Shown here one piece after another: positions 29,197 to 39,785 of a stretch of DNA of 39,785 nucleotides. The notes under the pieces were generated by a model. It worked only from the letters and a program-made list of their open reading frames with translations. It did no database searches and was not told the DNA's origin. Both the position numbers and the translations under genes were made by a program. Position 1 is the stretch's first letter. Each line of letters opens with the position of its first letter. Location of the stretch: the NCBI GenBank assembly GCA_003611875.1, contig RAYY01000039.1, forward strand, positions 1 to 39,785. The letters run 5' to 3'. The stretch comes from a bacterium D16-56 (GTDB lineage: Bacteria; Bacillota; Clostridia; Lachnospirales; Lachnospiraceae).

Positions 29197-29302
29197 AGCA
29201 TATTTTCCAAGAAATTCCTTTATATTAATGAGAGATAAAACAGGAAAAATGTTAAGCTCTGGGATCATGGATAAAAGGCTTAGGAGGATAGAAATTACAG
29301 GA

Positions 29303-29331
29303 TTGTAAATTTATATTAAAAATGATATACT
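29303..29331 (+). promoter_or_regulatory. Putative promoter of the binding-protein/chemoreceptor unit
   Basis: TTGTAA (29303-29308), 17 bases, TATACT (29326-29331), about 50 bases before the start. Confidence 0.6.
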
Positions 29332-29379
29332 AACGTTACTTTTTTACAGAGATATAAAAAATAAAGAGGTATCGGGAAA

Positions 29380-30624
29380 ATGAAAAAAGGAGTCGGAATA
29401 TTGTCTGCGGCAGCATTGTGTATGCTGCTGATGGCAGGATGCCAGAATGGGGGCAGATCTAAGAGGGAAGAAATGCCAGAGGATAACAGACCTGAGAATG
29501 TAAATCTGGTTGTCTGGGGGTCTGAGGAGGATGAGGAGCTTTTAAAACAGATTATTGACGGTTTTAAAAGACAGTATCAGGAAGAAGCTGATTTTCAGAT
29601 TGTAATCCAGGCGCAGGGAGAGGCAAAATGCAAGGATGTGCTTCTTGAGGATCTGGAAAATGGAGCTGATGTATTTACCTTTGCTGATGATCAGGTAAAT
29701 GCTTTGGCAGCAGCAGGAGGATTGGAGCCTGTGAAGGAGGATGCTGCTATACGATCGGAAAATCTGGAGGCAGCAGTGAAGGCAGCTTCTGTGCAGGATA
29801 AGATCTATGCATATCCGCTGACAGCAGATAATGGCTATTTTATGTACTATAACAAGAAATATTTTTCAGAACAGGATGTGGAGACGCTGGATCGGATGCT
29901 GGAGGTTGCCGAGGAGAATGAGAAGGTGATCACAATGGATTGGTCTTCTGCCTGGTATGTTTATTCCTTTTTTGGAAATACCGGTATGGAGATCGGATTA
30001 AATACAGACGGAATTACGAATTTTTGCACCTGGAACCAGACAGAGGGAAGTATTCGTGGGATCGATGTGGCTCAGGCAATGGGAAGAATAGCAAGGAGCC
30101 CGGCCTTTTCTAGCAGGACAGATGAACAGTTTTTGGCCGGGGTACAGGATGGAACGGTAATAGCAGGAGTCAGCGGAGTATGGAATGCGGTTGCAGTAGA
30201 GGAAGCCTGGGGAAAGGATTTTGGAGCTGCAAAGCTGCCTACCTATACCTGTCGGGGCAAGCAGGTACAAATGGCGTCTTTTTCTGGATGTAAGCTGGTA
30301 GGGGTGAATGCCTATTCTGAGCATTATGAGTGGGCGTCCAGGCTGGCAGAATGGATTGCAAATGAGGAAAATCAAAAGCTTCGATTCCAGATGCGGGGAC
30401 AGGGACCATCTAATATAAGAGCCTCTCAGTCAGAAGAAATGCAAAAGGCACCTGCTATTATGGCTCTTTTGGAGCAGTCAAAATATGCTCAGCTTCAGCG
30501 AGTAGGAGGAAAGTTCTGGGATCCAGTGGCAAAATTTGCAGGAATCATAGCAGAAGGAAATCCAGACAATGAGAATCTTCAGGAATTGCTGGATAAAATG
30601 GTGCAGGATGTAACAGCCAGATAG
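29380..30624 (+). CDS. Sugar-type substrate-binding lipoprotein next to a chemoreceptor
   Basis: A 414-residue family 1 solute-binding protein. The signal peptide ends in LMAGC (Cys21), so it is membrane-anchored. The body begins NVNLVVWGSEEDEELLKQIIDGF, continues with DVFTFADDQVNALAAAGGLEPV, and includes the crossover YAYPLTADNGYFMYYNKKYF. No transporter genes accompany it. Instead a methyl-accepting chemotaxis protein gene starts 33 bases later on the same strand. The pair may form a sensing unit in which the loaded binding protein signals through the receptor. The ligand is unknown, probably a sugar. Confidence 0.9.
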   Translation: MKKGVGILSAAALCMLLMAGCQNGGRSKREEMPEDNRPENVNLVVWGSEEDEELLKQIIDGFKRQYQEEADFQIVIQAQGEAKCKDVLLEDLENGADVFTFADDQVNALAAAGGLEPVKEDAAIRSENLEAAVKAASVQDKIYAYPLTADNGYFMYYNKKYFSEQDVETLDRMLEVAEENEKVITMDWSSAWYVYSFFGNTGMEIGLNTDGITNFCTWNQTEGSIRGIDVAQAMGRIARSPAFSSRTDEQFLAGVQDGTVIAGVSGVWNAVAVEEAWGKDFGAAKLPTYTCRGKQVQMASFSGCKLVGVNAYSEHYEWASRLAEWIANEENQKLRFQMRGQGPSNIRASQSEEMQKAPAIMALLEQSKYAQLQRVGGKFWDPVAKFAGIIAEGNPDNENLQELLDKMVQDVTAR

Positions 30625-30657
30625 GCAGAAGTATAGGGGTTTTGGAGGATAAGAGAA

Positions 30658-32245
30658 ATGAAGAACAGGCTGAGTATTCAGCAGCGTTTAATATTGCCTA
30701 TTGTTTTATTGGGAGTTGTAGCATTGATTTCGAATATGATTGCAATTTTTAGTATTCATAATGTAAATGCTAATGCGGCGAATATAGTAGATAATTATAT
30801 GGTGGGACAGTCAAGGCTGGAAGAAATCCGCCGTTCCATTTTAAACATACATAAGGTTGCACTGTCTCATATTGTGGCGGCAGATTATGAGACAATGGTC
30901 AAAGAGGTAGCTCAGATCAAGGCAGAGGAAAAAAAAGCTGGAGGCAGACCTGGAGGAATTTGCTGCTTATATAAGAAAAAGTGAGGAAGGAACTTTTTCA
31001 CAGCTTTTGGAAAATTATGATTCCTTTAAGCATGCTTTGATTGATCTGGTATGCGCCAGTGCAGACAGCAAAACCCAAGAGGCATATGGATTTGCAAATG
31101 GGGATGTGGCGGCATATGGAGCAGCAGTGGAGGAGAATATAGATCAGTTGGATCAATCTATCCGCACACAGACAGAGGCTGCCCGAAAAAGATTAATGAT
31201 TGTATATGGAATTTCCATTGGGATCGGTATCCTTTCGAGTATTATCGGTGTGGTGCTGGTGCTGTTTGCAATTCGCATTATCCTCAGATATGTGGTTAAG
31301 CCGATGAAAGGTATGCTGCTTTCCCTTCAGGGCAGCTCTAAGCGTATTGACGGTGTGACAGGGGAGGTGCTGAAGCGGACAAAAACATCGAATCAGAGTG
31401 CAAAGGACCTGGCTTCTCTAGTCAAGGAATTATCCTCTGCCATTCAGCAGGTAGCAAGCAATGTTGCTTTAATCAATACCAGCGCTGCAGGTGTGAAGAA
31501 GGATGTAAATAATATGGCAGAGGAATGCGGAATTATCACAAATTATTCTTCTGAAATGAGAATGCGGGCAGATGAAATGGAGCATTCGGCAAAGGAAAAT
31601 GTAAAAGTTATTGAAGCAAAGGTAACAGAAATTCTTTCTTTGCTGGATGATGCGATTAAAAAGAGCAGCAGTGTGGATCAGGTAAATATTCTTACAAAGG
31701 ATATTTTAAATATTGTATCTACTACAAATCTGATTGCGCTGAATGCTTCCATGGAGGCAGCTCGGGCGGGAACCGCAGGAAAGGGTTTCTCTGTGGTGGC
31801 TAATGAGATTCGTCAGTTGGCAGATTCCTGCGGTGAGACAGCAGGACGTATTCAGAATGTCAACGAGGTAGTTACCGGGGCGGTGCATAATCTTTCCAGG
31901 CAATCGCAGGAGCTGGTGGATTACCTGAAGGAATCGGTATTGACAGAATTTCAGTCCTTTGTGGCATCGGGGAAACAGTATAAAGATGATTCAGTTTATG
32001 TGGGCAGAGCTATGGATGCGTTTTATGAAAGGACAGAACATTTGAGAAGCAGTATGGAGGAAATCGCCAATTCTATTGGCAGTATCAGTAAGGCTATGGA
32101 TGAAGGCGCTGCAGGAATTACAGGAGCAGCAGACAGCACTAAAAATCTGGAACAGGATATGGCAAATATTACAGGAAAAATGGATGTGAATAAAGAGATT
32201 GTGGAGGAGCTGAAAAAACAGATGGAAGTATTTGTAGATTTATAG
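30658..32245 (+). pseudogene. Methyl-accepting chemotaxis protein, frameshifted at an A8 tract
   Basis: Two adjoining frames together make one chemoreceptor of about 528 residues. The first frame (30658-30984) gives a transmembrane segment (LILPIVLLGVVALISNMIAIF) and part of a four-helix sensor. It shifts at the run of eight A at 30929-30936. With seven A the reading would continue as EEKKLEADLEEFAAYIRKSEEG into the second frame (annotated from 31007), which supplies the second membrane segment, a HAMP-like stretch after VVKPM, and the signalling tip NLIALNASMEAARAGTAGKGFSVVANEIRQLA. The sequence is otherwise intact, so the cause may be a base-call error, phase variation by slippage, or recent inactivation. 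Confidence 0.85.
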
Positions 32246-32286
32246 AGCTTGTAAATTTATAGAGAAAGAATGAAAAAATTATTGCA

Positions 32287-32310
32287 TTTGTCACTGCAGA
32301 ATATGACAAA
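32287..32310. repeat. Perfect 7-bp inverted repeat before the terminator
   Basis: TTTGTCA (32287-32293) and TGACAAA (32304-32310) flank ten bases. It could be a regulator site for the operon starting at 32381 or simply an extra hairpin in front of the chemoreceptor terminator. Confidence 0.35.
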
Positions 32311-32313
32311 CGG

Positions 32314-32338
32314 CCTCTGTGAAAACAGAGGTTTTTTT
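32314..32338 (+). terminator. Terminator of the chemoreceptor unit
   Basis: CCTCTGT-GAAA-ACAGAGG followed by seven T. It separates the chemoreceptor unit from the five-gene cluster downstream. Confidence 0.93.
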
Positions 32339-32380
32339 ATATAATAAAGATAGAATCAAAATGGAAGAGGGGATATGAGA

Positions 32381-33610
32381 ATGGAAAATATACGAGGATT
32401 CAGGAGAATTTTATGGTATGGGATTCCTGCTTATGGACATGTATATTCGAATCTTTATCTGGCTAAGTATTTGGTGGAAAAAGGGTTTTATGTAATTTAT
32501 TATTCTATGGAGGAGTTTCGTTGGGATATTGAGGCTCATGGATGTGAGTGCCGTGTTTATCCTATCGGGGAAAAGGAGCTTGATCTGACAGACGGACAGA
32601 AAATTATAAAATTATATCGATTGATTTTACAGTATACAGAAAATATGATGCCGTTTCTTTTAGAGGAGGCGGTGCAAGAACAGCCTTGCGGGGTGATTTT
32701 TGAATCTTTGGCCTTATGGGGAAGAATCGTGGGCCAATTGCTTCACGTACCATCTTTTAGTTTTTATAGCATTGCATCCATTGGACGGGTGGCAGGAAAA
32801 GGATATATGGAGTACATGAGGGGATTTTCTGCAGACTTTTTATCTTATGCGGGAGAACTTCCTCAGGCATGGAGGATCAGGAACAGGATCGCCAGGAAAT
32901 GGAACGGCAGGAAGCTGGGGATGATTTCTGTTTTGATGGGGAACGGAGATTGGAATCTGATGGGATATTCTCGATTGTTTCAGCCTGGAGGAAAACAATT
33001 TGGAGAGAAATACCGGTTTTTGGGTCCTTTGGCACTTTACAGGCAGGAAACCGGAAATAATGACTTTGTTTATCCGCAGGGGAGTATGATCTATATTTCG
33101 CTTGGAACTATTTTCAATCAGGATGAAAGGCTGATCAGGGAGGTTGTGAAACAGTTTGGGAGTAAAAAGAGGAATATAACAGGGGAGCACAAGGATGAGG
33201 AATATTCGGTGGTTATGGTTTGGAATAGAATGGATGAGGAAAAAAAGACAGAGTTTCCGGATAACTTTATTGTGAGAAGGTTTGTGAATCAGAAAGAAGT
33301 AATGAGACAGGCATGTTTATTTATCAGCGCAGGAGGAATGAATAGTATTCATGAGGCATTGTATTATGGGGTACCTTGTCTGATGTGTCCTCAGCAGGGA
33401 GAACAGCTTTTAAATGCAAGGAGATTTGAAAAATTGGGATTTGGAAAAATTTTAAGAAATCCTGACAGACTGCGTAAGGAGGCAGAGGCAGTAATGAGGC
33501 TTAGGGAAAAATGGGATGAAAAGAAAAGGATGGAAATGACGAAGGCTTGTTTGGAGGAAATGGATGTTATATGGGAATGGATGAGAGGAGTGTCAGGGGA
33601 TGAAGCATAA
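32381..33610 (+). CDS. GT1-like glycosyltransferase (MGT/UGT fold), gene 1 of cluster
   Basis: A 409-residue GT-B enzyme related to macrolide and UDP-glucuronosyl transferases. The N-terminal acceptor domain starts with ILWYGIPAYGHVYSNLYLAKYLVEKGF, whose His in GHV is the usual catalytic base. The donor domain includes MIYISLGTIF and ACLFISAGGMNSIHEALYYGVPCLMCPQQGEQLLNA. The family usually has THGGMNS; here the His that touches the donor diphosphate is Ala. It would add a sugar to a small hydrophobic acceptor. ATG 32381 is eight bases after GAGGGG; 32375 is an alternative. The end overlaps the next gene by 11 bases. Confidence 0.88.
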   Translation: MENIRGFRRILWYGIPAYGHVYSNLYLAKYLVEKGFYVIYYSMEEFRWDIEAHGCECRVYPIGEKELDLTDGQKIIKLYRLILQYTENMMPFLLEEAVQEQPCGVIFESLALWGRIVGQLLHVPSFSFYSIASIGRVAGKGYMEYMRGFSADFLSYAGELPQAWRIRNRIARKWNGRKLGMISVLMGNGDWNLMGYSRLFQPGGKQFGEKYRFLGPLALYRQETGNNDFVYPQGSMIYISLGTIFNQDERLIREVVKQFGSKKRNITGEHKDEEYSVVMVWNRMDEEKKTEFPDNFIVRRFVNQKEVMRQACLFISAGGMNSIHEALYYGVPCLMCPQQGEQLLNARRFEKLGFGKILRNPDRLRKEAEAVMRLREKWDEKKRMEMTKACLEEMDVIWEWMRGVSGDEA

Positions 33611-34598
33611 GGTTTTAATTACAGGGGCAACAGGGTTTCTTGGAGAGTATTTGATCCGCAGGCTGACAGGAAAATATCGTGTTCTTGCATTAGGAAGAAA
33701 TCGTGAAAAGGGGAGACAGCTTGAGAAGCTGGGGGCTGAGTTCTGTCCAGGGGATTTTACAGATAAAAAAAGCTGTGGACATTATTTTTCTGAAGTGAAT
33801 TATGTGGTGCATGCAGGTGCTTTGTCTACTGTTTGGGGAAAATGGGAGGAATTTTATAAAACGAACGTGCTGGGAACGGATTTGGTGGCAGGGCTTTGTT
33901 TTGAAAACAGGGTACAGAGAATGGTGTATATTTCTTCTCCTAGTATTTATACCAGAAAGGAAGACCAATACAAGATTCGGGAGGAACAGGCGCCGGAAAA
34001 AAATGATTTGAATTATTATATTCAGTCTAAGCTGATGGCAGAAAAGGAAGTGGAAAAATGGGGAAAACGGGGACTGGAAACCGTAATTTTGCGGCCTCGT
34101 GGATTGATTGGAATCGGGGATACCAGTCTGGTTCCGCGGATTCTGCATGTAAATGACAGTATTGGGATTCCTTTATTTCGGGGCGGGAGGAATCTGGTGG
34201 ATCTGACCAGTGTGGAAAATGTGGCTTTGGCCTGTGAATTGTCTCTGACCGTAAAGGGGGCACAGGGAAAAATTTTTAATATTACGAATGGTGAACCGGC
34301 AGAGTTTGGAATGCTTTTAGAGCAATTTCTTAAGGCGGCAAACAAAGTGCCGCATTATCGAAAAATACCCTTTTGTGCAGCCTATAAGGCAGCAGCCGGA
34401 TTGGAGTGGATCTATCGAAGGTTTGATTTGGCAGGTGAGCCGGCCCTGACACGTTATACGGTTTGTACCTTGGGATTTGCTCAGACTATGGATATAAGCC
34501 GTGCCAGGGAAATTCTAGGATATTCGCCGGAAAAGACCTTGGAGGAATCTATAGAGGAATATGGAAAATGGTGGTGTGAAAGGTATGGGAAGGATTGA
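33600..34598 (+). CDS. NAD(P)-dependent SDR, OleD/3-beta-HSD-like, gene 2 of cluster
   Basis: A 332-residue extended short-chain dehydrogenase. The nucleotide motif TGATGFLG lies at residues 8-15. The catalytic pair is in YYIQSKLMAE (Tyr-x3-Lys), preceded by VYISSPSIY. The sequence style VVHAGALSTVWGKWEEFYKTNVLGT and RPRGLIGIGDTSLVPRIL resembles 3-beta-hydroxysteroid dehydrogenase and OleD-type enzymes, which act on 2-alkyl-3-oxoalkanoates. I infer that it reduces a beta-keto acyl intermediate made by the ketosynthase at the end of the operon. The start follows AGGAG. It overlaps the genes on both sides. Confidence 0.88.
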   Translation: MKHKVLITGATGFLGEYLIRRLTGKYRVLALGRNREKGRQLEKLGAEFCPGDFTDKKSCGHYFSEVNYVVHAGALSTVWGKWEEFYKTNVLGTDLVAGLCFENRVQRMVYISSPSIYTRKEDQYKIREEQAPEKNDLNYYIQSKLMAEKEVEKWGKRGLETVILRPRGLIGIGDTSLVPRILHVNDSIGIPLFRGGRNLVDLTSVENVALACELSLTVKGAQGKIFNITNGEPAEFGMLLEQFLKAANKVPHYRKIPFCAAYKAAAGLEWIYRRFDLAGEPALTRYTVCTLGFAQTMDISRAREILGYSPEKTLEESIEEYGKWWCERYGKD

Positions 34599-35430
34599 GA
34601 AGGTAGTCTTGTACCATTGTGGCTTCTGCGTCAATAATCTTGCATTAATATTTCGGAAAATGCCGTGGAAAAGCAGACGGTTTCCGGCTTTGGCCGTATT
34701 GATTCAGCATAAGACGTTGGGAAATATTTTATATGATACAGGATATTCGGAGCACATAGTAAACAAGGGTATGCAGAAAAAGGCAGGATTTTGGGAGAGG
34801 ATCGTCTTAAAGCTTTATGGGCTGTTAAATCCGGTGTCTGTAGAAAGAGATGATATGATTGATAAAAAGCTGGGACAGGATGGAATCGATTCTGAGAGTG
34901 TGAATACAATTATTTTGTCTCATGGCCATCCGGATCATGTTGGTGGGCTTTCTCGATTTTCAGGATATGAGCTGGTGACTTCAGAGGAGGTAATGGAAGC
35001 GATAAGAAAGCCGAAAACAGGAGGCTTGGTGTTCTCAAGTCAGATACCTGAGATAAAGGAAAGCAAGGTTCGCCAGATGTCAGGCCAAGGAATGAAGGAA
35101 CATTTTTTATGTCGGTATTTTGATAGAATTTATGATTTATTTGGGGATGGGAGCGTGATTGGGGTGATATTGGATGGACATTGCAAGGGACAGATGGGGA
35201 TTTGGATTCCCGATGTCAGTCTGTTTTTTGCGGCGGATGCTTGCTGGGGCAAGGATTTGGTTCATGTTGTGGGGAGAATGAGATTCGTGCCTCGGATGAT
35301 TCAGGAAAATTTTAAAGATTATCAGGATACGCTTGGCCGTATTGTCTGGATGAAAAAGGAGAATCCGGAAATTCAGGTTGTATTTTCTCATCAGACAGGA
35401 AGGGAGAGGGTGTATGAAGGAGCAGATTAA
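34585..35430 (+). CDS. MBL-fold metallohydrolase, gene 3 of cluster
   Basis: A 281-residue metallo-beta-lactamase-fold protein. The metal site motif HGHPDH is at residues 113-118 in IILSHGHPDHVGGL. Further ligands are likely His in ILDGHCKGQ, Asp in FFAADACWG, and His in VVFSHQTGR, so both metals can bind. The opening KVVLYHCGFCVNN is Cys-rich. It may hydrolyse a lactone or thioester, as quorum-quenching lactonases of this fold do, and so occupy the place of OleB in a related pathway. ATG 34585 overlaps the SDR gene by 14 bases; an in-frame ATG at 34561 is also possible, and neither has an ideal ribosome site. Confidence 0.87.
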   Translation: MGRIEKVVLYHCGFCVNNLALIFRKMPWKSRRFPALAVLIQHKTLGNILYDTGYSEHIVNKGMQKKAGFWERIVLKLYGLLNPVSVERDDMIDKKLGQDGIDSESVNTIILSHGHPDHVGGLSRFSGYELVTSEEVMEAIRKPKTGGLVFSSQIPEIKESKVRQMSGQGMKEHFLCRYFDRIYDLFGDGSVIGVILDGHCKGQMGIWIPDVSLFFAADACWGKDLVHVVGRMRFVPRMIQENFKDYQDTLGRIVWMKKENPEIQVVFSHQTGRERVYEGAD

Positions 35431-36766
35431 GGTATTGAAATATTATCTTTATTATAAGTATTTTCTGCGTTTAAGAAGCAGAAGATGTCTGGTCAGGCGG
35501 CAGGCACGGAGAATCAAAAAACATCTTCAGTATGTATCAAGTTGTTCCGTGCTGTATCGGGGAAAAAGGAAATTGCGGGATTATCCGATTGTGGATAAGG
35601 AATTTATGATGGAACATTTTCAAGAGATAAATACCGTAGGAATTGGGAGGGAGGAGGCAGAGGAATTTGCAGTGAGGGCAGAACGAGAGAGGAATTTTCT
35701 ACCGAAGCTGCGGGGGGTTACAGTAGGATTAAGTTCCGGAACATCAGGAAAGCGCGGGATATTTCTGGTGTCTGATGAGGAGAGGGTGCGCTGGGCCGGA
35801 TATATTCTTGCAAAATTTTTGCCGGTGAGAATTTGGGAGAAATGCTCTATTGGATTTTTTATGAGAGCAGACAGCAATTTGTATCAGTCAATAGGTTCCA
35901 ATCGAATCGCTTTTCATTTTTTTGATATTTATCAGGATTTGGAGAAACATAAAAAACGTTTGGAGAAAATCTATCCTGATATTTTGGTGGGCCAGCCGTC
36001 AGTTTTGTTGGAAATTGGTAAAGACATGGAGATGGACAAATTAAAAATCAGTCCAAGGATCGTGATTTCCATTGCAGAGGTACTGGAAAGGGAGGACGAA
36101 AAACGCCTGAAAAGGATGTTCGGTTTGAAGATGATTCACCAGGTTTATCAATGTACGGAAGGATTTTTGGCTTCTACCTGCCGCTGTGGTACGCTTCACC
36201 TGAATGAGGAGATTGTACATATTGAGAAGGAGTATCTGGATAAAAAAAGGTTTATACCAATCGTGACAGATTTTGAGAGACGTGCACAGCCGATTATCCG
36301 GTATCGGCTGAATGATATTTTGGTGGAGAAAAAGGGAAGATGCTGCTGTAAAAGTCCTTGTTTAGCTCTTGAAAAGATTGAGGGCAGGGAGGATGACATC
36401 TTTATTTTCCGGGGAAAAGACGGGAAGGAAAAATTGGTATTTCCGGATTTTATTCGAAGATGTGTGTTGTTTGCTGAAAGTGAGAAAAAAGTGAAGAAGG
36501 AAAAATGGTGGGAGAATCGTGAAAATGTGGTATATGATTATCGGGTGGTTCAGAAAGAAGACGGGGGGTTGATTTTTTATGGAGATTTTACAGAGAGTGA
36601 AAAGGGACAAATCAGGCAGGAGCTGAAAAAATTGGCAGAGGATCGGGAATTTGTAATGCCGCAGGTAGTTTTTGAGAAATATGAATGTGAAAAGGGGAGA
36701 AAAATGAAACGGGTGGAAAGAAAAGGAAGCGTGGCATGCAAAACTCACAAAGCAGGAGTGATGTGA
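35414..36766 (+). CDS. Adenylate-forming enzyme (F390 synthetase/CapK-like), gene 4 of cluster
   Basis: A 450-residue member of the phenylacetate-CoA ligase / F390 synthetase / CapK branch of the ANL superfamily. The phosphate loop reads VGLSSGTSGKRGIFLVS near residue 111, and VYQCTEGFLASTCRCGTLHLNEE matches the adenine-binding region. RYRLNDI and a Cys-rich patch CCCKSPC follow. It should activate a carboxylate as an acyl-AMP, then pass it to CoA, a carrier protein or an internal hydroxyl. No acyl carrier protein gene is seen nearby. ATG 35414 is preceded by GGAAGGGAGAGG, and the gene overlaps the hydrolase gene by 17 bases. Confidence 0.85.
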   Translation: MKEQIKVLKYYLYYKYFLRLRSRRCLVRRQARRIKKHLQYVSSCSVLYRGKRKLRDYPIVDKEFMMEHFQEINTVGIGREEAEEFAVRAERERNFLPKLRGVTVGLSSGTSGKRGIFLVSDEERVRWAGYILAKFLPVRIWEKCSIGFFMRADSNLYQSIGSNRIAFHFFDIYQDLEKHKKRLEKIYPDILVGQPSVLLEIGKDMEMDKLKISPRIVISIAEVLEREDEKRLKRMFGLKMIHQVYQCTEGFLASTCRCGTLHLNEEIVHIEKEYLDKKRFIPIVTDFERRAQPIIRYRLNDILVEKKGRCCCKSPCLALEKIEGREDDIFIFRGKDGKEKLVFPDFIRRCVLFAESEKKVKKEKWWENRENVVYDYRVVQKEDGGLIFYGDFTESEKGQIRQELKKLAEDREFVMPQVVFEKYECEKGRKMKRVERKGSVACKTHKAGVM

Positions 36767-36821
36767 AGCATATACAGCATGGAGGAAATTATGAACTTGG
36801 TTTTGGAAAAGGAGAGTGAAG

Positions 36822-37775
36822 ATGAGAGTGGAACAGAAGACAAAAAGGGTAAAAATAGCAGGGATGGGAAGGGCTCTTGCAGGAGAAAAAATAAATTTTG
36901 GACATCAGACCAGATACAGGCTTTTACCTGGACAGACTATTTTGGAGCTTGGGGTGGAGGCGGCTGATCAGGCATTGAAGAAATCAGGGATGAGAATAGA
37001 GGATATGGATTGTATTGTATGTGCCATGGCAACCCCGCTGCAGGCCATTCCCTGCAATGCAGCGCTGATTCATGAAAAAATGGCGAAGGGATCGTCAATT
37101 TCAGCTATAGATATCAACACAACCTGCACCAGTTTTATTTCTGCTGTGGATATCTTTTCTTGTCTTGTGGATATTGGAAGGTATGAGAACATATTAATAT
37201 TGTCTGGAGATACAGCTTCTGCGGCATTAAATATGGAGCAGAGGGAAAGCTATGAGCTGTTTTCAGATGGGGCGGCTGCCTGTGTACTGACAAGGGCAGA
37301 AAAGGGTGATTTATCGGAAATTCTCTACAGCCGTCAGGAAACTTGGTCAGAAGGAGCCCACGATACGGAGATCCGCGGCGGCTGCGGGCTAATGCCGGCA
37401 TTTTGTATGAATGAAGGGAACAGGGATGATTATTATTTTGATATGAAGGGGCATAGAATTTTGAAGCTGTGTGCAAAAAAGCTGCCGGATTTTGTGGATC
37501 GTTGTCTGGAAGATGCCCGAATTTCACGCGATGATATTCATGTGGTGATACCGCATCAGGCCAGCAGGGCATTGGGGATTATTATGCCAAGGCTGGGGTT
37601 TCCGAGAGGAAAGTATATAGATCGGGTGGAGCAGTATGGAAATATGGTTTCTGCGTCTGTGCCATTTGCATTGTGTGAAGCGGAGGAAACGGGTCGGGTA
37701 AGGCGAGGGGATCTGGTGCTGCTTATGGGAACAGCAGCAGGACTTACGGCAAATTTTCTCTTGATGCGGTATTAG
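36822..37775 (+). CDS. FabH-like ketosynthase III, gene 5 of cluster
   Basis: A 317-residue thiolase-fold enzyme of the KAS III type. The catalytic triad is intact: Cys102 in INTTCTSFI, His245 in VIPHQAS and Asn274 in YGNMVSAS, the same arrangement and nearly the same numbering as E. coli FabH. The C-terminus LLMGTAAGLTANFLLMRY fits the family. It condenses an acyl thioester with a second acyl unit to give a beta-keto product. Its place at the end of an operon without other fatty-acid genes argues for a dedicated role rather than housekeeping synthesis. ATG 36822 follows AAAAGGAG by seven bases. The gap from gene 4 is 55 bases. Confidence 0.9.
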   Translation: MRVEQKTKRVKIAGMGRALAGEKINFGHQTRYRLLPGQTILELGVEAADQALKKSGMRIEDMDCIVCAMATPLQAIPCNAALIHEKMAKGSSISAIDINTTCTSFISAVDIFSCLVDIGRYENILILSGDTASAALNMEQRESYELFSDGAAACVLTRAEKGDLSEILYSRQETWSEGAHDTEIRGGCGLMPAFCMNEGNRDDYYFDMKGHRILKLCAKKLPDFVDRCLEDARISRDDIHVVIPHQASRALGIIMPRLGFPRGKYIDRVEQYGNMVSASVPFALCEAEETGRVRRGDLVLLMGTAAGLTANFLLMRY

Positions 37776-37833
37776 TATAACCTGTTTTAAATACCTTTCC
37801 GTTTCAGCAAGGAATTATTGAGCGGTAAAGCTC

Positions 37834-37862
37834 TTGTAAATTTCCTCTGCCTATAGTATGAT
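37834..37862 (+). promoter_or_regulatory. Promoter of the His/Cys-rich miniprotein gene
   Basis: TTGTAA (37834-37839), 17 bases, TATGAT (37857-37862). The transcript would start near 37869, leaving only a very short leader that begins with the ribosome site. Confidence 0.6.
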
Positions 37863-37885
37863 AGGGTCAGAAGGAGGTGATGAAG

Positions 37886-38137
37886 ATGAGAAGACGTGTA
37901 ATGACTGTGATGACAGCAGCATTTCTTGCAATGATGTGTGCTGTTCCGGCATTCGCTCATTGTCATGGAGGCAGCAGAAGGTCCTATCACCATGAGAATG
38001 TGTGCCAATCTCATTGTGAGGACGGATATGTATGTGGAGTAGACGGACATTACTGTGAAGATCATCGTGATGGGGATGTTTGCCAGGGGTATGAAGCGTG
38101 TGCCTCAGTATGCAGCAGCCATCATCATGGAAGATAA
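37886..38137 (+). CDS. Secreted His/Cys-rich miniprotein
   Basis: An 83-residue precursor that I do not recognise as a named family. The signal peptide, MRRRVMTVMTAAFLAMMCAV, would be cleaved after PAFA. The mature part has 59 residues with ten His and eight Cys, including HCHGG at the start and SSHHHGR at the end. Such composition points to metal binding (zinc, copper or nickel) or a disulphide-knotted peptide outside the cell. ATG 37886 is eight bases from AAGGAGG; the frame also opens at 37877 and 37880. It has its own promoter. Confidence 0.75.
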   Translation: MRRRVMTVMTAAFLAMMCAVPAFAHCHGGSRRSYHHENVCQSHCEDGYVCGVDGHYCEDHRDGDVCQGYEACASVCSSHHHGR

Positions 38138-38351
38138 TCATTTGCATAATATTCGACTTTACCGCCCTGACAGGGCAGTGCGGGCGGATTCTCCAAAACA
38201 CAGGGAATCCGCCTGTTCACGGTTTAGAGTGTGTTTTATGCAGAGCATAGGAATAATATTACACACGCTTCAGGGCTATACAAAAATAACTTTACGATCC
38301 TGCACAGGATTTATGCAGGATTGTAAGGGACAATTGGTGAGGTGATAATAA
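38138..38351 (+). other. Structured intergenic/leader region before the DUF3881-like gene
   Basis: A chain of possible hairpins: an 11-bp stem at 38183-38213 (GGCGGATTCTC with GGGAATCCGCC), and ATCCTGCA/TGCAGGAT at 38297-38304 and 38314-38321. No T run follows the first stem closely, so it is a weak terminator at best. The ribosome site GAGGTGATAA for the next gene begins near 38339. Confidence 0.5.
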
Positions 38352-39230
38352 GTGCATAAGTTTTTGTGCAGTGTCGGATTTGGAGGATATCAGAAAAAAA
38401 AGGAGATTACTAAGCTGTTAGATGAATTGGAGAAGACTGTGGGAAAGCGCAGAAGAATCCAGATTGAGCCAGACAGCAATCTTTGCGAAATTCGCGCTGA
38501 GGTAGCGCCAGGTATGGGGATTACAATGGTAGGAGAGACGGATGAGGATGGAATTTTCAGACGTGAATATTATTATCCTTATCTGACGGCTGATGATGTG
38601 TCGTCAGAGGTGGAATGCAGTATCCAGCGTCATGCAGAGAAGGAAACCTTTGCGGGTCTGCTTGATGAGACGCGGGTAGGCATTTCTTTGATATTTTATT
38701 TGGATAATGGGTTTGAATATTTGGAACGGAGTCTGGATAAAGCATCTCAAAAGGTAAATGCAGTGAAGCTTACCGGACTTTCGGTGGAGGGAAAGATTCT
38801 TCTTCCTCTTCACAAAACGAGAAAACAGATCGAAAAGGCTCAAGTGGCGGCAAAGGACCGTAGCAATCTTTTGGAGGCGGCCCGCAATGGGGATGAGGAT
38901 GCTATGGAAACATTGACCATTGAGGATATTGACATGTATTCTCAAATTTCCAGGCGTGTAATGAAGGAAGATATTTACTCTATTGTGGATTCCAGCTTTA
39001 TGCCTAGTGGGATTGAATGCGATCATTATACTGTGATTGGAGAGATTATTCGGGTGGAGGAAAAGCTGAATCGGATCAGTGATGAGATGGTTTACAATCT
39101 GACCTTAAATTGTAATGATATGGTGTTTCATGTGGGAATTGCACAGAAAAATCTGCTGGGAGAGCCAATAATCGGGAGAAGATTTAAGGGGCAGATTTGG
39201 ATGCAGGGTGTAGCTGTGTTTGAGGAGTAA
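38352..39230 (+). CDS. DUF3881-like protein, function unknown
   Basis: A 292-residue soluble protein that I recognise as the DUF3881 type common in Lachnospiraceae. It starts MHKFLCSVGFGGYQKKKEI and is predicted cytoplasmic, with a mixed alpha/beta make-up, a stretch RSNLLEAARNGDEDAMETLTIEDIDMYSQISRR in the middle and IECDHYTVIGEIIRVEE with a C-terminal beta part. The family has no established function known to me. The start codon is GTG, preceded by GAGGTGAT. Its steady presence in related genomes makes it useful as a taxonomic hint. Confidence 0.8.
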   Translation: MHKFLCSVGFGGYQKKKEITKLLDELEKTVGKRRRIQIEPDSNLCEIRAEVAPGMGITMVGETDEDGIFRREYYYPYLTADDVSSEVECSIQRHAEKETFAGLLDETRVGISLIFYLDNGFEYLERSLDKASQKVNAVKLTGLSVEGKILLPLHKTRKQIEKAQVAAKDRSNLLEAARNGDEDAMETLTIEDIDMYSQISRRVMKEDIYSIVDSSFMPSGIECDHYTVIGEIIRVEEKLNRISDEMVYNLTLNCNDMVFHVGIAQKNLLGEPIIGRRFKGQIWMQGVAVFEE

Positions 39231-39248
39231 GGAAAATAGAAATTCTGC

Positions 39249-39277
39249 TTGACGGCAGAGCGTTTTACTAATATAAT
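39249..39277 (+). promoter_or_regulatory. Promoter of tRNA-Arg
   Basis: TTGACG (39249-39254), 17 bases and perfect TATAAT (39272-39277). A leader of about 60 bases follows with the inverted repeat AGGATTCC/GGAATCCT, probably removed in processing. Confidence 0.85.
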
Positions 39278-39345
39278 AAGAGAGGATTCCAGGGATGAAG
39301 GTGGGAACAGCCGGAATCCTTGGATGATTTATTTTAGGTCTGCAG

Positions 39346-39419
39346 GTTTCCGTAGCTCAGATGGATAGAGCGACCGCCTCCTAAGCGGTAGGTCGGGTGT
39401 TCGAGTCACCTCGGGAACG
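39346..39419 (+). tRNA. tRNA-Arg (CCT)
   Basis: Acceptor GTTTCCG (39346-39352) pairs with 39412-39418 (one T-G), discriminator G39419. The anticodon loop CTCCTAA gives CCT, and the T-arm reads GGTGTTCGAGTCACC. Single-gene unit with its own promoter and terminator; tRNA-Arg 3' ends are frequent integration sites. Confidence 0.96.
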
Positions 39420-39429
39420 CTGGGAACAT

Positions 39430-39467
39430 AGCCGAAAGCCTTGATTTTAGAGGGTTTTCGGCTTTCT
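39430..39467 (+). terminator. tRNA-Arg terminator
   Basis: AGCCGAAA pairs with TTTCGGCT across a short loop, with CC/GG inside, then a short T-rich tail. Confidence 0.85.
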
Positions 39468-39492
39468 TCATTTCAGCACCAAAACTCGGATT

Positions 39493-39641
39493 TGCTAATA
39501 TGCTAATACATTTGAAAATAGAACCTGCATGCTAATACGAGTTAAATGGTCGGATGTTCAAATAATCCGGCCTGTTTTTCTGCTAATAAAACTCCCATTT
39601 TGAAGCTTCTCAAACACCAGATTTTTTCTTTTTTGCTAATA
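39493..39641 (+). repeat. Five TGCTAATA direct repeats beside tRNA-Arg
   Basis: Copies of TGCTAATA start at 39493, 39501, 39530, 39581 and 39634, all in the same orientation, the first two in tandem. Four read TGCTAATA followed by C or T. Direct repeats of this kind next to a tRNA 3' end are typical arm-type sites for a tyrosine integrase. No integrase gene lies in the window. Confidence 0.6.
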
Positions 39642-39724
39642 CGGTATTTTTATCCGTTCATTTGTAAGCGTCAAATAAGAACGTGTAGTGAAATATATGG
39701 CGTTCTCCTGTAAAATCAGGGTTA

Positions 39725-39758
39725 GAGTTTTTAGGGTTCACTCCAAAAACTCTAAATC
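39725..39758 (+). promoter_or_regulatory. Leader hairpin before a gene at the window edge
   Basis: TTAGAGTTTTT pairs with AAAAACTCTAA around about a dozen bases. It stands just before AAAGGAGAA and an ATG, so it may be a control hairpin in the leader of that gene. Confidence 0.45.
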
Positions 39759-39777
39759 CAGATAAAGGAGAATACCT

Positions 39778-39785
39778 ATGGACAT
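39778..39785 (+). CDS. Start of a truncated gene at the window end
   Basis: ATG at 39778 follows AAAGGAGAA by a good distance. Only two and a half codons are visible, so nothing can be said of the product. If the TGCTAATA repeats mark an integrated element, this would be its first gene. Confidence 0.4.

Follow-up and report, generated by a model that had tools for sequence, protein, structure and literature searches.

A ketosynthase-containing operon of a Lachnospiraceae bacterium with a four-gene core kept across phyla and exchangeable partner genes: a candidate acyl biosynthetic pathway

We analysed a stretch of 39,785 nucleotides from the Lachnospiraceae bacterium D16-56 (GenBank assembly GCA_003611875.1, contig RAYY01000039.1, positions 1 to 39,785; hereafter the window), which carries an operon of five open reading frames (ORFs) running in one direction on the forward strand (Table 1). 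They encode a family 1 glycosyltransferase (GT1), an extended short-chain dehydrogenase/reductase (SDR), a hydrolase of the metallo-beta-lactamase (MBL) fold, an adenylate-forming (ANL) enzyme, and a ketosynthase (KS) of the type III class (KSIII). The families were assigned with Pfam and NCBIfam; the ANL protein, without a Pfam match at 1e-3, was placed by NCBIfam only. When recomputed from the ORF list, the overlaps between neighbours were 11, 14, and 17 bp, followed by a 55 bp gap between the ANL and KS genes, exactly as an initial annotation of this DNA had given them. The GT1 reading frame opens with an ATG at 32375, and the in-frame ATG at 32381, better spaced from a GA-rich stretch, is the plausible start that the annotation had chosen. 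The KS gene has an in-frame alternative GTG start at 36816. At the place of the strong terminator reported upstream lies a terminator-like stem of nine pairs followed by a T tract; the terminator scan by itself is weak evidence (six sites in the scanned region vs 3.7 expected, sd 2.6).

Table 1. Positions of the operon genes and the upstream stem-loop in the window.
Feature	Position	Strand	Basis or remark
Terminator-like stem-loop with T tract	32312..32333	+	nine-pair stem, T tail; between the operon and the upstream ORF
GT1 glycosyltransferase, MGT-like	32381..33610	+	Glyco_tran_28_C, EryCIII-like_C, and UDPGT over cut-off
Extended SDR, NAD-dependent epimerase / 3beta-hydroxysteroid dehydrogenase type	33600..34598	+	best curated model OleD, below cut-off
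MBL-fold hydrolase, lactonase branch	34585..35430, ATG start	+	Pfam Lactamase_B
PaaK-type adenylate-forming enzyme, TIGR02304 'F390 synthetase-related protein'	35414..36766, ATG start	+	NCBIfam
KSIII-type ketosynthase, MxnB/CorB-containing clade, 18-residue N-terminal deletion	36822..37775, ATG start	+	models, profile, trees

The SDR, MBL, ANL, and KS genes form a conserved unit. We assembled 97 loci, selected by ANL similarity and not by their partners: 80 from a scan of genome contigs, 6 from a plasmid collection, and 11 that pass the curated cut-off of TIGR02304. The scan used an alignment of five ANL proteins, all from clusters already found; 561 of its 593 pattern stretches encoded a relative, and the scan gave at least 80 loci. 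The 11 TIGR02304-passing loci, the window's own among them, are those over the cut-off among 99 relatives. Counting core genes by tblastn, we found all four on one strand with midpoints no more than 6 kb from the ANL gene in 92 of the 97 loci, and the full core in 65 of the 66 with at least 4.5 kb of flank on both sides. Four loci without the full core (L009, L051, L052, and L055) are short of flank. The fifth is the Pseudomonas amygdali plasmid pMPPla107 (L188), where KS, SDR, and MBL lie at 274-277 kb and ANL at 292.5 kb, 15-18 kb apart. Among ANL relatives below the cut-off (L020-L038), an SDR, MBL, or KS match was present in 0/19, within flanks of about 1.5 kb, whereas 11/11 of those over it (L009-L019) had at least two of these partners within similar flanks.

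The core genes are also inherited together. Pairwise patristic distances for KS, SDR, MBL, and ANL correlated with r of 0.84-0.92 over 66 loci (20 of 86 having been dropped for odd ORF lengths), and the maximum among 1000 shuffles per pair was 0.16. Of 24 genomes in the window's genus, nine carry the KS, and exactly these nine pass TIGR02304. Chance neighbours without a common pathway would account for the varied partner genes described below; the conserved grouping, the matching presence and absence in the genus, and the parallel trees all argue against this explanation and leave it a negligible probability. The analysis supports a genuine biosynthetic operon whose core is kept across phyla.

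In a wider sample of the phylum, 6 of 299 genomes pass TIGR02304, including the window's own; the operon is thus broadly but thinly distributed. The order SDR-MBL-ANL-KS is found in most clostridia and in the streptococci, enterococci, Fusobacterium, Acholeplasma, Jonesia, and a Campylobacteraceae metagenome-assembled genome (MAG). Layouts with the KS first are found in Bacillaceae, Paenibacillaceae, Marinisporobacter, E. coli, Paracoccus, Rhizobium, Shinella, Ketogulonicigenium, Paraburkholderia, and a Pseudomonas. Near-identical cluster DNA was present in 672 of 5426 complete E. coli genomes, about one in eight. In the two E. coli records inspected (L006 and L119), the cluster follows narI, between narGHJI and purU, and in EC958 it lies beside tRNA-Tyr; a targeted search of the open-access literature found no description of it. 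On the megaplasmid of Pseudomonas sp. Leaf58 (L196) the core is spread over about 10 kb, and the intervening genes that split the core on both Pseudomonas megaplasmids are mostly hypothetical. A Priestia megaterium plasmid (L194) carries a related KS with no other core genes nearby, followed by an acyl carrier protein (ACP) and an MMPL family transporter.

The initial annotation had raised the question of whether the five genes stay together; the four core genes do, and the fifth does not. Genes on the same strand within 2.5 kb of the core were counted in 85 loci, with Pfam identities taken from representatives. GT1 was found in 35, ATP-grasp in 25, GNAT in 15, and GT21 in 5, some loci having two partners, and a GT2 lies near L079. 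The E. coli clusters (two records) carry PAP2, FA_hydroxylase, and FA_desaturase genes. The partners in the Rhizobium and Shinella clusters vary with lineage, among them DUF3419 in the Rhizobium cluster L191 and a Rieske-domain protein in L195, and these genes may hint at the product. The fifth gene is thus exchangeable between GT1, GT21, GT2, ATP-grasp with GNAT, DUF3419, and PAP2 with a lipid hydroxylase and desaturase, and these partners look like head-group or lipid-tailoring enzymes.

The window's GT1 scored 197 bits on the MGT model TIGR01426, under its cut-off of 260, and its nearest solved sequences are 7vm0, 8h5d, 10zg, and YjiC. In GT1 proteins, the residue preceding GG in the sugar-nucleotide motif is normally His. 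The 28 cluster GT1s have Ala (16), His (5), Val (5), or Thr (2) at this position, and the window's enzyme has Ala.

The initial annotation had reported no carrier protein gene nearby. None was seen by eye among ORFs of at least 80 aa between 28 and 39.8 kb of the window, an inspection that did not extend to shorter ACP genes; the statement does not hold for all relatives. In 5 of the 85 loci (L064, L067, L075, L078, and L079), a gap of 5-27 bp separates the end of the core from an ACP-like gene adjoining the KS, and each of the five also carries one or more additional acc or fab genes. In L064 (= L159), the ACP gene is followed by genes for a biotin carboxyl carrier protein (BCCP), biotin carboxylase, carboxyltransferase, a 312-aa ORF, and a FabF over its cut-off, and the run continues with a GT1, a UDP-galactopyranose mutase, and an IagA/BgsA-type glycolipid glycosyltransferase. 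In L067, carboxyltransferase, FabD, and FabF genes follow, with FabD and FabF under their equivalog cut-offs. A 76-aa ORF after the Enterococcus KS (L080) was considered as a possible ACP and set aside, having no Pfam match. The one lead from the literature is an 'F390 synthetase' mentioned within a Desulfotalea psychrophila type II fatty-acid synthesis gene cluster, in the excerpt of PMC2649909 consulted.

Across 34 hand-picked cluster genomes, a FabH over the cut-off, apart from the cluster KS, was found in 0/5 ACP-linked genomes vs 26/29 others (Fisher p 2e-4), the exceptions being G561, G568, and G571. With bins under 1.3 Mb dropped, the contrast was 0/3 vs 26/27 (p 1e-3). The only FabF found lies within the cluster in G099 and G558; G100 and G557 have more than one match. 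The cluster KS, the only FabH-model match in the five ACP-linked genomes, appears to stand in for FabH there, and the evidence is suggestive. One of the five loci (L075, genome G101) lies on a contig binned as Saccharibacteria that carries the cluster with ACP-, BCCP-, and biotin-carboxylase-like genes, in a 0.9 Mb bin without a FabF match; this contig is possibly mis-binned.

These genes would fit an alternative initiation of fatty-acid synthesis, in which ANL and KS feed an unusual primer to the ordinary machinery to give a modified membrane fatty acid. We regard this as quite improbable, since most other cluster genomes have their own FabH, and the window's genome has both FabH and FabF on another contig than the operon (FabH on C116, 392 bits on TIGR00747, over the cut-off). 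It also leaves the exchangeable glycosyltransferase, ATP-grasp, and GNAT genes unexplained.

The initial annotation had called the catalytic motifs intact, and they are so throughout the aligned relatives: the KS triad Cys102-His245-Asn274 in 40/40, the SDR Tyr-x3-Lys in 70/70, the seven dinuclear metal ligands of the MBL (HxHxDH, His, Asp, His) in 38/38, and the ANL phosphate loop S-S-G-T in 83/83. The possibility, also raised there, that the window's KS is simply the housekeeping FabH was rejected: it scores about 173-174 bits against the TIGR00747 cut-off of 292.1 and falls outside the FabH group in trees.

The core KS profile matched the solved structures of MxnB (4v2p, 264 bits), CorB (4yuc, 254), and FabH (2ebd, 234) best, with lower matches to the PQS biosynthetic enzyme 3h76 (136), PqsC (111), and OleA (3s23 group, 101); 4V2P and 3S23 are identified as MxnB and OleA in an excerpt of PMC5724707. 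In a careful tree of 52 rows, 36 core KSs and MxnB/CorB formed one clade (support 97/95), apart from 12 FabH and two OleA-like rows, and a quick tree of 56 rows recovered the same clade with support 95; the outside references for the clade were MxnB, CorB, and the two OleA-like rows. MxnB and CorB lie on a long branch (about 1.1) beside the Paracoccus KS, and their placement within the clade is weak (75/65). An excerpt of PMC4578411 places them within the FabH clade. The nearest characterised kin of the core KS, as judged from profile and tree, are these chain-joining ketosynthases.

A second feature of the KS is the column of OleA E117. It holds Ile (32) or Leu (4) in the 36 core rows, Val in MxnB and CorB, Phe, Met, or Thr in 13/13 FabH, and Glu in 2/2 OleA-like rows, which were so labelled from their OleC- and OleD-like neighbours. 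This glutamate (OleA E117, PpyS E105) deprotonates the bound acyl chain, is essential in PpyS, and is absent in MxnB/CorB, where V94 takes its place (excerpt of PMC4578411). Furthermore, 25 core KSs forming one clade, the window's included, lack 18 residues between G16 and R31; the stretch has 16 residues in these and 34 in the 11 other core rows, 13 FabH, MxnB, and CorB. The corresponding N-terminal stretch of FabH holds CoA-contacting residues, so KSs with the deletion possibly do not accept free CoA primers as FabH does.

The MBL profile matched GcL and other acyl-homoserine lactone (AHL) lactonases at 86 bits, 4-pyridoxolactonase at 73, and PqsE at 26. The window's protein reached 48 of the 390 bits required by the AttM model, so the AHL lactonase cut-off was not passed. 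AHL lactonases have a functional Tyr three residues after the bridging Asp; in the cluster proteins, this position is Trp in 37/38 and Tyr in 1/38. These values disfavour a PqsE-type thioesterase and bear on a Pqs-like scheme, in which ANL would make an aryl- or acyl-CoA, the KSIII would extend it with malonyl, and the MBL would release it as PqsE does. The enzyme classes are those of PqsA, PqsD/PqsBC, and PqsE, and the KS profile also matches 3h76 and PqsC. Since the KS profile favours MxnB/CorB and FabH, the MBL profile favours lactonases, and the Pqs scheme is not known to include an OleD-like SDR, we consider this alternative very improbable.

Given that the KS is kin to MxnB/CorB and that the MBL resembles lactonases, the main rival is a two-chain route to a lactone or pyrone signal. 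The KS would join two beta-ketoacyl chains, or a beta-ketoacyl and an acyl chain, to a pyrone, butenolide, or similar ring, which the SDR would reduce, the MBL open or tune, and the GT1 glycosylate. MxnB, which serves a type I polyketide synthase pathway, forms a pyrone by condensing two beta-ketoacyl chains that are bound to carriers (excerpt of PMC5724707). The shared clade, the shared absence of the OleA/PpyS glutamate, and the lactonase branch of the MBL all fit such a route. However, the long branch and weak placement of MxnB/CorB mean that their reaction may be derived, the operon has no source of a two-chain substrate, and a KS seemingly in the place of FabH in five loci points to ordinary chain-starting chemistry. 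On balance, we judge this route unlikely.

The best curated model for the SDR is OleD (NF042422), with 194 of the 580 bits of its cut-off, compared with 119 on HpnA. This cut-off is strict, as 0/149 genomes pass it in an Actinomycetota sample. An OleD-like protein aligns with the SDR at 31% along 288 columns. In the SDR tree (midpoint root), a branch with support 99 separates 34 core SDRs from eight OleD-like rows. The OleD likeness given in the initial annotation survives as the nearest model, with the SDRs in a clade of their own.

The ANL protein passes TIGR02304 with 472.7 bits (cut-off 251.9), a family whose name, 'F390 synthetase-related protein', is uninformative on function, and its nearest solved sequences are phenylacetate-CoA ligases (PaaK-type). 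No OleC model was among its NCBIfam hits, and BLASTP against the OleC-like ligase of the reference locus L162, itself at 496 on NF045786 (cut-off 900), found nothing. L162 and L165, which served as Ole references, fall under the curated OleC and OleD cut-offs and are Ole-like by neighbourhood.

An Ole-like beta-lactone route would have the KS make a 2-alkyl-3-keto acid, the SDR reduce it, the ANL enzyme close the beta-lactone, and the MBL replace OleB. The enzyme classes are as in OleA, OleD, and OleC, the SDR has OleD as its best model, and the MBL is of the lactonase branch. Membership of the Ole pathway was nevertheless rejected: the glutamate is found in 0/36 core rows, the ANL protein is not of the OleC family, the SDR is under the OleD cut-off and outside the OleD-like clade, and no alpha/beta hydrolase model of Pfam, as for OleB, is matched by any of the five proteins. 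The initial annotation was right that OleB is missing, and the wider Ole kinship it drew does not reach beyond the SDR. The chance that the product arises in this way is slim.

The reading we prefer is an ACP-linked, lipid-like hydroxy-acyl pathway with interchangeable head-group enzymes, its product in the window being glycosylated; we give it a probability of roughly 0.45. The TIGR02304 enzyme would adenylate a carboxylic acid and hand it to a thiol of ACP or CoA. The KS would then load the acyl group on Cys102 and join it to an ACP-bound malonyl or beta-ketoacyl partner, giving a beta-keto thioester, whose keto group the SDR would reduce to a hydroxyl. The MBL would open a lactone or cleave the thioester to a free hydroxy acid, and the GT1 would add a sugar to the hydroxyl or carboxyl, as other head-group enzymes would in other bacteria. 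The reactions, their order, the substrate, and the product are all inferred from the predicted proteins and their kin, and a glycosylated hydroxy-acyl compound is our best guess.

Several points weigh against this pathway. The only characterised members of the KS clade join two chains into alpha-pyrones instead of making hydroxy acids, and the kin of the MBL are lactonases, so that thioester cleavage and a lactone intermediate are equally likely. In the window itself, no ACP gene of the size inspected is apparent in the operon. Among the relatives, the ACP call rests on Pfam in L064 and on similarity to the L064 protein (43-77 bits) in the other four. The genomes of the FabH comparison include many MAGs of unstated completeness (G101 0.9 Mb, G558 0.7 Mb) and several kin. 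The parallel trees were compared without a housekeeping-gene control and may partly reflect ordinary vertical descent. None of the queried partner types was found in 17 of the 85 loci; some of these are cut short, E. coli has its other tailoring genes, and in S. sanguinis (L100) none was recognised. Finally, the head-group role of DUF3419 here is putative, drawn from the general association of this family with betaine-lipid head groups.

A broader proposal is that the core makes an undescribed acyl backbone in several phyla, whose hydroxyl or carboxyl receives a different head group in each bacterium, forming a modular class of lipids distinct from the usual glycerolipids. We offer this tentatively and hold it to be rather doubtful. 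If true, the head groups would be sugars added by GT1, GT21, or GT2, and amino-acid-like groups added by ATP-grasp/GNAT or DUF3419, and the class would occur in gut Lachnospiraceae, oral streptococci, Enterococcus, Acholeplasma, Fusobacterium, Paenibacillus, and about one in eight complete E. coli. The enzyme set is conserved in human-associated bacteria (Lachnospiraceae, oral streptococci, and E. coli), and if a lipid or signal is made, the compound has probably been overlooked in well-studied organisms. The pyrone-forming MxnB and CorB fall next to, or inside, the wider operon family, which suggests their origin. The protein families are known, and their combination and breadth appear undescribed: a literature search confined to the open-access set, papers outside it not being covered, and including the TIGR02304 family names and F390 terms, found no description of the cluster.

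Upstream of the operon, at 30658-32245, a gene that by eye resembles a chemoreceptor appears as two ORFs in different frames, 108 and 412 aa long, and eight consecutive A stand at 30929-30936. The cause may be a real frameshift, phase variation, or an assembly error. Downstream, at 38352-39230, lies a gene for a DUF3881 protein (372 bits), a family without assigned function; L040 has an ORF of the same length at this place, compared by length only. The promoter scan (11 sites vs 11.3 expected) was uninformative, and in the search for regulatory RNA only a tRNA matched at gathering thresholds in 29200-39785.

Among known systems, the Ole operon (OleA/B/C/D) likewise unites a thiolase-fold condensing enzyme, an OleD-related SDR, and an adenylating enzyme. 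The window's operon differs in a KS without the OleA glutamate, a PaaK/TIGR02304-type ANL enzyme, an SDR of a separate clade, and an MBL and an exchangeable extra gene with no OleB. MxnB and CorB, of myxopyronin and corallopyronin biosynthesis, are the closest characterised ketosynthases by both profile and tree and share the lack of a glutamate base, but they do not have the 18-residue N-terminal deletion of the window's KS. FabH shares the Cys-His-Asn triad and the size, and the cluster KS stands beside an ACP-like gene in 5 of 85 loci; the core KSs nonetheless form a separate clade, and the window's KS is under the FabH cut-off, in a genome that has its own FabH elsewhere. PqsABCDE also combines ANL, KSIII, and MBL enzymes in one operon, whereas here the MBL is of the lactonase branch, an SDR is present, and the KS is closer to MxnB/CorB. 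By its curated cut-off, the window's ANL protein is a member of the TIGR02304 family. Finally, in mycolate-type two-chain condensation by FadD32, Pks13, and CmrA, as in the proposed pathway, an acid is activated, chains are joined, and an SDR reduces the beta-keto product; the chains are joined there by Pks13, and here the joining enzyme would be a stand-alone KSIII.

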